Shown here in pieces: positions 32,209 to 35,098 of a stretch of 41,304 bases of DNA; the stretch's first letter is position 1; each line of letters opens with the position of its first letter. The position numbers were made by a program, and so were the translations under genes. The DNA is taken from the NCBI GenBank assembly GCA_006218065.1, contig VBWE01000021.1:1-41304 (forward strand). The letters run 5' to 3'. This stretch comes from Bacteroidota bacterium. GTDB taxonomy: Bacteria > Bacteroidota > Bacteroidia > Palsa-965. Below the pieces are notes generated by a model. The model saw only the letters and a list, made by a program, of their open reading frames with translations, was not told the DNA's origin and made no database searches.

Positions 32209-34215
32209 ATGACCACCGGTGAATTCCAGTCACTTATCCTGCGGGGCATACCCGACGATCTTCCCGCTCCAAAAGTTTTCGACGGTTCACTGAATCACGC
32301 GCCGAAGCGAAAAGAAATCCTTTCTCCCGAAGAAAAAAAACTGGCTATCCGGAATGCGCTTCGTTATTTCCCCGCAAAGCATCACGCCATACTGGCAAAG
32401 GAATTTGCCGAAGAGCTGAAAACATACGGACGGATTTACATGTATCGTTTCCGCCCCGATTATAAAATATTCGCCCGCCCCATCCACGAATACCCGCATC
32501 AAAGCATCCAGGCGGCGGCCATCATGCACATGCTGAGCAACAACCTCGACTACGCCGTAGCCCAGCATCCGCACGAACTGATCACTTACGGCGGAAACGG
32601 CGCGGTATTCCAGAACTGGGCGCAGTACCTGCTCACCATGCAGTACCTGGCCACGATGACCGACCGGCAGACACTGGTATTGTATTCCGGTCACGCGCTC
32701 GGACTTTTTCCTTCGCATCCCGACGCGCCGCGCTGCGTGGTTACCAACGGCATGATGATTCCCAATTATTCGAAACCCGATGACTGGGAACGTTTCAATG
32801 CGCTCGGCGTAACGCAGTACGGACAGATGACCGCCGGCTCGTTCATGTATATCGGTCCGCAGGGCATTGTGCACGGCACAACGATCACGATCATGAATGC
32901 TGCGCGGAAAATTTCGAAGAACGAAGCGGATGCGCGCGGCCGTCTTTTTGTTTCGTGCGGATTGGGCGGCATGAGCGGCGCACAGCCGAAGGCCGCAAAA
33001 ATTGCGGGACTTGTCGCGGTTATCGCGGAGATCAATCCGAAAGCGACACAGACGCGGCATTCGCAGCACTGGGTGGACGAAGTTTTCGAAAACCTGGATG
33101 AACTGATCGCGCGGATACGCAAAGCGCAGTCGGTGAAAGAAGCCGTATCGCTGGCTTACCAGGGCAACGTGGTGGATCTCTGGGAAAGGCTCGTAAAAGA
33201 AAATATGCACGTGGACATGGGTTCCGACCAGTCGTCGCTGCACAATCCCTGGGCGGGCGGTTATTATCCTGCGGATTATTCGCTGGAAGAATCGAACCGC
33301 ATGATGGCGGAGGAACCGGAAAAATTCCGCAAGGCCGTGCAGGAATCGTTGCGCCGCCAGGCTTCGGCCATCAATACGCTGGCGGCACGCGGCATGTATT
33401 TTTTCGACTACGGCAACGCGTTCCTGCTCGAGGCTTCGCGCGCGGGAGCGGACCTGCTGAAAAAAGATGGCAGTTTCATTTATCCTTCTTACGTGCAGGA
33501 TATCCTCGGGCCGATGTGTTTCGATTACGGTTTCGGTCCTTTCCGCTGGGTATGCACGTCCGCCGATCCCGCCGACCTGGCCGAAACAGACCGGCTGGCG
33601 CTGGCTGTGCTGGAAAACATGTATCACGAAGCGCCGGGCGAAATCAAACAACAGTTGCACGACAACATTCTCTGGATCAAAGACGCGATGGAGAATAATC
33701 TCGTGGTGGGTTCGCAGGCGCGCATTCTTTATACGGACAGCGACGGGCGTATCGGCATTGCGGCGGCGATCAACAAAGCCATCCGCGAGGGTCGCATCAA
33801 AGCGCCGGTGGTACTGGGCCGCGACCATCACGATGTTTCGGGAACGGATTCGCCGTACCGCGAGACTTCCAATATTTATGACGGGTCGCGTTTCACTGCG
33901 GATATGGCCGTGCATAATTTTATCGGCGACGGGTTTCGCGGTGCGACCTGGGTGAGCCTGCACAACGGCGGTGGCGTAGGCTGGGGCGAAGTGATCAACG
34001 GCGGGTTCGGGCTGGTGCTCGACGGCAGCGAGGACGCGGAAAGAAGATTACGTTCGATGCTTTTCTGGGACGTGAATAACGGCATTGCACGCCGCAGCTG
34101 GGCGCGGAACAAGGAAGCGATCTTCACCGCCAAACGCGCCATGGAAAACGAACCGATGCTCAAAGTAACGCTACCCAACCTGGTTGACGACCAGTTGCTG
34201 GATCATCTTTTTTGA
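32209..34215 (+). CDS. hutU: Urocanate hydratase
   Basis: Second enzyme of histidine degradation: converts urocanate to imidazolone propionate using tightly bound NAD+. 668 residues, matching the longer urocanase form of Bacteroidota rather than the ~555-residue proteobacterial one. ITYGGNGAVFQNWAQYLLTM and LYSGHALGLFP are conserved N-terminal segments. CGLGGMSGAQPKAAKIAG is the NAD-binding loop. VCTSADPADLAETDRLA carries the Cys expected in the active-site region. GATWVSLHNGGGVGWGEVIN is the C-terminal glycine signature. No hutH, hutI or hutG lies in the window. It follows the DUF5522 gene by 3 nt. Confidence 0.94.
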   Translation: MTTGEFQSLILRGIPDDLPAPKVFDGSLNHAPKRKEILSPEEKKLAIRNALRYFPAKHHAILAKEFAEELKTYGRIYMYRFRPDYKIFARPIHEYPHQSIQAAAIMHMLSNNLDYAVAQHPHELITYGGNGAVFQNWAQYLLTMQYLATMTDRQTLVLYSGHALGLFPSHPDAPRCVVTNGMMIPNYSKPDDWERFNALGVTQYGQMTAGSFMYIGPQGIVHGTTITIMNAARKISKNEADARGRLFVSCGLGGMSGAQPKAAKIAGLVAVIAEINPKATQTRHSQHWVDEVFENLDELIARIRKAQSVKEAVSLAYQGNVVDLWERLVKENMHVDMGSDQSSLHNPWAGGYYPADYSLEESNRMMAEEPEKFRKAVQESLRRQASAINTLAARGMYFFDYGNAFLLEASRAGADLLKKDGSFIYPSYVQDILGPMCFDYGFGPFRWVCTSADPADLAETDRLALAVLENMYHEAPGEIKQQLHDNILWIKDAMENNLVVGSQARILYTDSDGRIGIAAAINKAIREGRIKAPVVLGRDHHDVSGTDSPYRETSNIYDGSRFTADMAVHNFIGDGFRGATWVSLHNGGGVGWGEVINGGFGLVLDGSEDAERRLRSMLFWDVNNGIARRSWARNKEAIFTAKRAMENEPMLKVTLPNLVDDQLLDHLF

Positions 34216-34262: not shown

Positions 34263-34284
34263 GGCAGTGACTTTCGTCACTGCC
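34263..34284. promoter_or_regulatory. Operator-like palindrome GTGAC-N4-GTCAC
   Basis: GGCAGTGAC (34263-34271) and GTCACTGCC (34276-34284) are exact inverted repeats around TTTC. The core TGAC-N4-GTCA has the spacing of Crp/Fnr-family sites. It lies 18 nt upstream of an exact -7 box (34303-34310), just where an activator would bind. No T run follows it, so a terminator for hutU is less likely, though a 3' hairpin role is possible. Confidence 0.6.
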
Positions 34285-34302
34285 ACGCTCTTTTCCAGGC
34301 GC

Positions 34303-34310
34303 TACTTTTG
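34303..34310 (+). promoter_or_regulatory. -7 box for small ORF and DUF2892
   Basis: TACTTTTG matches TAnnTTTG exactly, 8 nt before the ATG at 34319. Confidence 0.65.
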
Positions 34311-34318
34311 ACGCAGTC

Positions 34319-34411
34319 ATGAAATCTGAATTTTTTCGTTTCGTGCTCGTGTGCCTGCTTTGCATCGCCCTTGTAACAGGTATCGTATTCATAGCAGGGG
34401 CGTTCCATTAA
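34319..34411 (+). CDS. 30-residue single-helix membrane peptide
   Basis: ATG to TAA encodes a 30-residue peptide: MKSEFFRF, then a hydrophobic helix VLVCLLCIALVTGIVFIAGA, then FH. The short basic/aromatic N-terminus and ~20-residue helix fit a bitopic micropeptide. It sits directly behind a strong promoter box and a palindromic operator, 12 nt before the DUF2892 gene, which argues that it is translated. It could also be a leader peptide. No known family is recognised; it may be a small regulator of a membrane complex. Confidence 0.55.
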   Translation: MKSEFFRFVLVCLLCIALVTGIVFIAGAFH

Positions 34412-34423
34412 AAACCAGGAATC

Positions 34424-34639
34424 ATGAAAAAGAATATGGGAACAGCAGACCGGGTGATCCGGCTCGTACTGGCTGCAATTTTTGCGGCGCTTTATTTTAC
34501 CGGAACAGTAACCGGCACATGGGGGCTGATCCTGCTCGTACTGGGCGGAATCTTCGTATTCACTTCGGTTATTTCGTTTTGCCCGCTTTATACGATTTTT
34601 GGGCTGAGCACCTGCCCGGTGAAACAACATGGCTCCTGA
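34424..34639 (+). CDS. DUF2892 (YgaP-like) membrane protein
   Basis: 71 residues. The family start MKKNMGTADRVIRLVLAAIF is textbook DUF2892, followed by two helices (about 13-28 and 30-53) and the C-terminal FCPLYTIFGLSTCPVK with two Cys. The family corresponds to the membrane part of YgaP-type rhodanese proteins and occurs alone in many Bacteroidota. It is likely co-transcribed with the 30-residue ORF and controlled by the palindrome at 34263-34284. The link to sulfur or nitrosative stress is only an inference from YgaP. Confidence 0.9.
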   Translation: MKKNMGTADRVIRLVLAAIFAALYFTGTVTGTWGLILLVLGGIFVFTSVISFCPLYTIFGLSTCPVKQHGS

Positions 34640-34690: not shown

Positions 34691-35098
34691 ATGTCTTTGC
34701 TGAAAGAAGGGAAGTTGTACAGTATTTTTAATTCGAAATGCCCAAGCTGCAATGTGGGTGAGTTATATCCCGATCGCAATCCCTATCATTTACAGAACCT
34801 GGCGAAGATGCATAAGCGGTGCAGTTGCTGCAGGCAGACCTATGAACCGGAAACCGGTTTTTATTACGGCGCCATGTATGCGAGTTATGCGCTTTCCGTC
34901 GCAATCGTGATGCCCCTGATGGCTGTTCTCCATTTTGTTTTTCACCTGGAGGTAATCATCATGTTTTCAATAATCGGCGGCTTGGTTCTTGTTATGTACC
35001 CGCTTATTTTCCGCTGGTCGCGGAATCTCTGGCTGAATATATTCGTGCCTTACGATCCTGAAAAACGCAGGGCTGTTCTTTCAGGCGAGATGAAATAA
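34691..35098 (+). CDS. DUF983 membrane protein with zinc-ribbon-like Cys
   Basis: 135 residues. A Cys-rich N-terminus (KCPSCNVGELYPDRNPY, then KRCSCCRQTYEPETGFYYGAMY) looks like a zinc ribbon and is the DUF983 signature. Two transmembrane helices follow (about 70-88 and 94-112), then a charged C-terminus (YDPEKRRAVLSGEMK). The family is often found near cytochrome oxidase genes in other phyla; no such genes are seen here. Function unknown. Confidence 0.88.
   Translation: MSLLKEGKLYSIFNSKCPSCNVGELYPDRNPYHLQNLAKMHKRCSCCRQTYEPETGFYYGAMYASYALSVAIVMPLMAVLHFVFHLEVIIMFSIIGGLVLVMYPLIFRWSRNLWLNIFVPYDPEKRRAVLSGEMK

Follow-up and report, generated by a model that had tools for sequence, protein, structure and literature searches.

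A predicted operon of a CxxC micropeptide and a DUF2892 membrane protein behind a Crp/Fnr-type operator in Bacteroidota, with a probable role in sulfide or persulfide stress

Analysis of the window, a stretch of 41,304 nucleotides from a Bacteroidota genome of 5.26 Mb (contig C33), suggests the presence of a Crp-activated operon in which a gene for a membrane micropeptide carrying a CxxC motif precedes a gene for a DUF2892 protein, with a probable role in sulfide or persulfide stress. We put the probability of this reading at about 60%. The operon and the peptide family are well supported by comparison among relatives, where the geometry of operator and promoter, the family, its pairing with DUF2892, an invariant cysteine of the adjacent Crp and a sulfur-related neighbourhood are all recognizable. 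The order of elements in the studied unit is hutU, palindrome, promoter box, 30-codon open reading frame (ORF), DUF2892 and DUF983.

The comparisons are based on 193 non-redundant DUF2892 loci of Bacteroidota. Two smaller samples were also used. A less biased set of 99 DUF2892 loci includes 60 places picked by hand from a listing and leans to high PF11127 scores, and a named set of 80 loci was picked by similarity to peptide-linked DUF2892 proteins, of which 77 were left after removal of duplicates and failures.

Operator and promoter

The perfect inverted repeat of 9 nucleotides described in the initial annotation is present at positions 34263–34284, with no strand assigned. Its arms, 34263–34271 (GGCAGTGAC) and 34276–34284 (GTCACTGCC), are 100% complementary and enclose 4 nucleotides (TTTC), and the 22-nt palindrome occurs only once in the window even when 3 mismatches are allowed (0.02 expected). 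The part conserved across relatives is not the full 9-nt arms but a 14-mer core, GTGAC-N4-GTCAC, located at 34267–34280. Of the 193 loci, 57 have an exact copy of this core in the 300 nt upstream, compared with 0.05 expected from composition shuffles; two control stretches per locus gave 0/189 and 0/193. Positions flanking the core are weakly complementary, all three outer positions pairing in 8 of 95 sites. The operator precedes the first ORF of either kind, by 33–56 nt where the peptide comes first and by at least 45 nt where DUF2892 does.

The TAnnTTTG box reported 18 nt past the palindrome is located at 34303–34310 on the forward strand (TACTTTTG), 22 nt past the operator core. Among the 95 full-site loci, for which purine/pyrimidine degeneracy was allowed in the site, 76 have the start of the best box either 22 nt past the site (63) or 23 nt past it (13), and the window copy, with its box at +22 from the core, matches the geometry of its relatives exactly. 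Palindromic TGA-type half-sites at a fixed spacing to the box are thus a feature of the relatives as a group, as in class II Crp/Fnr promoters, and it is this spacing together with the conservation of the core that bears out the earlier proposal of a Crp/Fnr-like operator ahead of a promoter. If transcription starts about 4 nt past the −7 box, the centre of the site falls near −41.5, the position of a class II activator. The spacing is thus the one known from class II sites of the Crp/Fnr family, and we infer activation rather than repression at the operator.

Among 38 loci, 21 have the peptide ATG only 3–12 nt past the box (9 of them at 3–5 nt), so the message of the peptide operon may be nearly leaderless; in DUF2892-first units the start codon is located 15 nt or more past the box. 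The excerpt of a study on Bacteroides gives TAnnTTTG as the −7 consensus of sigma-ABfr and describes 5′ UTRs under 10 nt as uncommon (about 3.7%; PMC7366714).

The micropeptide family

The short ORF starts with the ATG at 34319 and runs for 30 codons to 34411 on the forward strand (MKSEFFRFVLVCLLCIALVTGIVFIAGAFH). As had been claimed, it is intact and encodes one hydrophobic helix, predicted over residues 2–29 with a mean pLDDT of 90.9. The CxxC motif is formed by residues 12 and 15 (codons 34352–34354 and 34361–34363). A single-helix CxxC peptide of 25–39 aa is encoded in 57 of the 193 DUF2892 loci, the window locus included. Because CxxC was required for scoring a locus as peptide-positive, its invariance in the peptide alignment is true by construction; in the profile searches the motif was not required, but the profiles were trained on CxxC peptides. 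A lysine or arginine is found at −5, before the CxxC, in 53 of 55 alignable peptide loci.

Codon-level comparison, which the initial annotation had proposed as a check, indicates that the micropeptide is under purifying selection at the amino-acid level. Identity by codon position is 0.49/0.69/0.31, the second position being the most conserved and the third the least. The pair L120/L121 differs by 8 synonymous and 0 non-synonymous changes, and 43 close pairs give a pS of 0.71 against a pN of 0.20. The suggested pair of a regulated micropeptide and a membrane protein is therefore upheld as far as its parts are concerned: the ORF is real, it is conserved in relatives and it is paired with DUF2892.

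A peptide profile built from six loci matched 28 of 395 genomes of the class with 29 hits, and DUF2892 adjoins 23 of these hits; the other 6, mostly weak, have no DUF2892 nearby. With a wider profile, 32 of 395 genomes of the phylum contained a match, and 29 of the 30 matches fetched have DUF2892 within 420 nt (24 of 25 outside the training set). Many of the phylum-wide peptide loci outside the class (group f90) have no operator, and several of these suggest that the pairing of peptide and DUF2892 outlives the promoter.

No model in Pfam or NCBIfam covers the window peptide. When 44 family members were searched, none matched NCBIfam at E up to 0.01, and Pfam returned two isolated matches of one member each (E about 0.009). 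By these searches the ORF founds a peptide family without a name in the profile libraries used, and so adds a conserved gene family absent from them. We take single-helix small membrane subunits such as CydX and CcoS-type proteins to be its nearest likeness, since these also have about 30 residues and one helix and lie beside a membrane partner. The window peptide differs from them in having a CxxC inside the helix and a different partner, and a scan of three peptides at E up to 1 gave only one sub-threshold CcoS match, from one peptide (E 0.38).

Variants of the family were also observed. The micropeptide of L126 is in CxxS form. Two Eudoraea loci (L144 and L145) keep the operator, and an intact CxxC peptide was not found in either; L145 has a broken remnant. 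Fusions of peptide and DUF2892 were looked for as in-frame upstream extensions, which are present in 4 of the 193 loci, none of them peptide-like.

The DUF2892 protein

The DUF2892 gene reported 3′ of the ORF is located at 34424–34639 on the forward strand and encodes a protein of 71 aa that belongs to PF11127 (YgaP-like_TM; E 9.8e-23), scoring 80.5 bits against a cut-off of 25.3. Alignment columns identify Cys53 (in FCPLY) and Cys64 (in STC) as its conserved cysteines. Of the 395 genomes of the class, 232 encode stand-alone DUF2892 proteins. A DUF2892 profile found no match among solved structures at E up to 1, and the structure model, with a mean pLDDT of 66.7, is too poor for a fold search.

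In the less biased set, the C-terminal Cys of DUF2892 is present in 8/8 loci with peptide and 55/89 without (Fisher p 0.047; 2 loci without CPLY dropped). This association was rejected, since a tree test revealed that neither the C-terminal Cys nor the rhodanese associations of DUF2892 are independent of phylogeny. In one locus (L081) a TGA is located at the codon of the conserved C-terminal Cys. Selenocysteine was considered and rejected for this tail, as no SelA match is present in that genome (86% complete), and the TGA is probably a stop or an error.

Crp/Fnr regulators and their sites

A Crp/Fnr gene lies directly upstream in 71 of the 193 DUF2892 loci, and 68 of these 71 have an operator site. 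Like CRP, FNR and NtcA, the adjacent Crp contains the Pfam domains cNMP_binding and HTH_Crp_2 and is associated with a palindromic site with a 4-nt spacer. It is distinguished from all three by a single invariant cysteine, Cys73, located in the effector domain and found in 72 of 72 aligned Crps (the 71 locus-adjacent proteins and the copy of this genome). N-terminal Fe-S cysteines of the FNR type are not conserved among the 72, and NCBIfam contains no equivalog that the protein matches at its cut-off. Most of the 72 have R-[E/V]-V-I-S-R as their recognition helix, and we presume that its R-E-x-x-x-R pattern, found in most, corresponds to that of CRP. Crps with E179 pair with GTGAC on both sides of the site (43/53) and those with V179 with GTAAC (11/14). 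On the tree this correspondence amounts to about 3 changes, and the independent supported pairs, 2 in number, are both or nearly both as expected but too few for a test. What emerges is a testable regulon for a Crp/Fnr lineage that has a single invariant cysteine and is as yet uncharacterised.

Five HTH_Crp_2 proteins are encoded in this genome. The Cys73 orthologue is located at C78:267009–267632 and is of the V179 type. A full GTAAC-N4-GTTAC site overlaps its stop codon, TAGTTTTG follows 22 nt on and a TauE gene comes next, while a second, weaker site lies ahead of an MBL-rhodanese gene. The cluster C78:267009–269800 (L270), which brings together the Cys73-type Crp, TauE, MBL-rhodanese and DUF6132 genes with two operators, is a candidate persulfide regulon.

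When this genome was scanned for site plus box, allowing a gap of 22 nt and 2 mismatches at most, 14 matches were obtained against 6 in a reversed control. The best three are those in the window, on C78 and, on C40, at the promoter of a multicopper oxidase gene. A gap of 23 nt gave 10 matches in the genome as in the control and is thus not enriched genome-wide. Other matches, with a TGAC-N4-GTCA core but different outer bases, precede genes that presumably encode a hemerythrin-like protein (next to the gene of an FNR-like regulator), a sensor kinase, homogentisate-dioxygenase-like and kynureninase-like proteins and an M50/CBS protease. Those at C41:188574, C41:192523, C9:769, C21:20544 and C21:156633, each with a TGAC-N4-GTCA-like site and a box 22–23 nt on, lie ahead of genes of the first four of these kinds and make up a possible second regulon. 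Two overlapping Crp/Fnr regulons may thus be present in this genome, and the window site may belong to either of them. Exact GTRACn4GTYAC sites number 18 in this genome, most of those checked lying inside genes (the check left out C64:16021 and C78:62641, of which C78:62641 lies within an ORF). A second exact GTGAC site, C47:63058, was considered as a multicopper-oxidase promoter and rejected, as it is inside a gene.

Sulfur neighbourhood and candidate signal

The same-strand downstream neighbours of the 45 Crp-adjacent, peptide-free loci, 70 in all, include 23 rhodanese, 7 OsmC, 5 TPMT, 2 TauE and 2 metallo-beta-lactamase proteins. The regulator is thus linked to sulfur genes, by rhodanese and OsmC neighbours in the relatives and by TauE and MBL-rhodanese in this genome, as in a sulfide/persulfide module. 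Oxygen, NO or redox state, which the initial annotation had offered as the signal, is unsupported as stated, because the adjacent Crp has no conserved N-terminal Fe-S cysteines and stands in a neighbourhood of sulfur genes, and that guess is probably not the right one. The single invariant Cys, the lack of Fe-S cysteines and the rhodanese, OsmC, TauE and MBL-rhodanese neighbours point to reactive sulfur, which is most likely the signal.

At the peptide loci themselves an adjacent rhodanese is scarce, being found in 1 of 55 loci and among 2 of 74 neighbours (the 74 covered out of 102 listed neighbour proteins). The sulfur link would hence run via the regulator and the peptide-free relatives. 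Across all loci, the difference between those with and without peptide (1/55 vs 29/132) has a p of 3e-4. The idea that the peptide replaces an adjacent rhodanese was rejected, as the difference is not significant in the named set (1/31 vs 4/43) or the less biased set (0/8 vs 25/89), nor on the tree.

In the accessible part of a study on Azospira, a DUF2892 gene is up about 10-fold during H2S oxidation and its deletion has only a minor sulfide phenotype (PMC5358917). Literature listings contained no fitting paper that describes persulfide sensing by a Crp/Fnr protein of Bacteroidetes or Flavobacterium.

Alternative explanations

The same operon and peptide could respond to low oxygen or NO if the site were read not by the Cys73-type Crp but by the FNR-like regulator on C41, which has an N-terminal CEHC...C and lies beside hemerythrin-like and UspA genes. 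The window core TGAC-N4-GTCA, with a TAnnTTTG-like box at +22/23, also precedes the hemerythrin-like gene beside this regulator and other genes. In addition, the sole Cys73-type Crp of this genome is V179 with GTAAC-N4-GTTAC as its own full site and the window site is of the G type; both observations count against the reading that we prefer. DUF2892 genes elsewhere do respond to NnrR or low oxygen. According to the available excerpts, that of Bradyrhizobium belongs to the NnrR regulon (PMC6710368), which makes an NO or low-oxygen signal precedented as well, and that of Acaryochloris lies in a microoxically induced cluster (PMC5295598). However, across relatives the operator sits right behind the gene of a Cys73-type Crp, and the window keeps the outer G/C bases, which the C41 sites do not. 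Relative G006, moreover, has an E-type Cys73 Crp with GTAAC as its own site and a mixed site at the peptide operon, so one regulator may read both kinds. We consider control by the FNR-like protein possible, though not probable.

Two further readings concern the ORF and the palindrome. The ORF might be a leader peptide or part of a 5′ UTR that tunes translation of DUF2892, with a functionless product, since it lies close to the predicted transcript start and ends about 11–12 nt before DUF2892 in many loci. Selection at the amino-acid level and the K/R kept ahead of the CxxC within a single helix argue against this, as does the fact that the pair is found with other promoters too; 136 of the 193 DUF2892 loci have no peptide, so the peptide is not needed for translation of DUF2892. 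We hold a mere leader to be improbable. The palindrome, for its part, might be a terminator hairpin of hutU, with a perfect 9-bp stem and TTTC loop located 47 nt past the hutU stop and a short T-rich stretch after it, the promoter match then being due to chance. Yet the core is conserved as DNA at a fixed distance to the box, the outer stem pairs in the 95 loci close to expectation, and the upstream gene is Crp, not hutU, in the 71 loci mentioned above. A transcript-end hairpin was rejected on account of the unconserved outer stem and the position fixed relative to the promoter, and a hutU terminator is a very remote prospect. The two outcomes that the initial annotation had named as refuting, an ORF not conserved in relatives and a palindrome mostly 3′ of genes, were both checked for and not observed.

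Proposed mechanism and relation to known systems

In the sulfide/persulfide reading that we prefer, a Crp/Fnr-family activator would detect reactive sulfur via its single invariant cysteine, bind GTGAC-N4-GTCAC near −41.5 (class II) and turn on the TAnnTTTG promoter of a two-gene operon, micropeptide first and DUF2892 second. The CxxC of the peptide would lie near the predicted cytoplasmic end of its membrane helix, and DUF2892 would be a membrane protein of the YgaP type, with two helices and, on that same predicted side, two cysteines. The two products may assemble into a complex in the membrane and there carry or move sulfane sulfur, much as in E. coli YgaP the TM domain may serve the rhodanese fused to it. 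Contact between the two and any thiol chemistry are putative. If the peptide CxxC and Cys53 and Cys64 of DUF2892 face the cytoplasm, as the positive-inside rule predicts, a thiol relay could operate. The statistical indications of such a relay fail once phylogeny is considered.

The window DUF2892 shares the TM family PF11127 with E. coli YgaP. The consulted excerpts describe YgaP as a membrane sulfurtransferase whose TM domain is a two-helix dimer (PMC4730233), and ygaVP as sulfide-responsive, being derepressed by sulfide (PMC9774250). Unlike YgaP and ygaVP, the window unit has no rhodanese domain and adds a CxxC micropeptide, and the regulator is of the Crp/Fnr type rather than a SqrR/BigR-type YgaV. 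It is conceivable, but doubtful, that the unit represents a "split YgaP", in which the CxxC micropeptide would be the missing catalytic or relay partner of the stand-alone DUF2892 protein; a membrane dithiol of 30 residues would then replace the rhodanese domain and, at the inner membrane face, hand sulfane sulfur on to the cysteines of DUF2892, under a new cysteine-based Crp/Fnr persulfide sensor. The operon offers a handle on the role of stand-alone DUF2892 proteins.

Neighbouring genes

The upstream neighbour hutU (urocanate hydratase, Pfam Urocanase domains) is located at 32209–34215 on the forward strand, outside the unit. Downstream, a DUF983 gene (PF06170) at 34691–35098 on the same strand is possibly co-transcribed with the unit. 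The window stretch had no match in the plasmid collection. A urocanase-like C-terminus is also present ahead of the unit in the family relatives L006 and L015, and a DUF983-like gene, the likeness being judged by eye, follows DUF2892 in the relatives L073 (the same as L010) and L074 (the same as L015).
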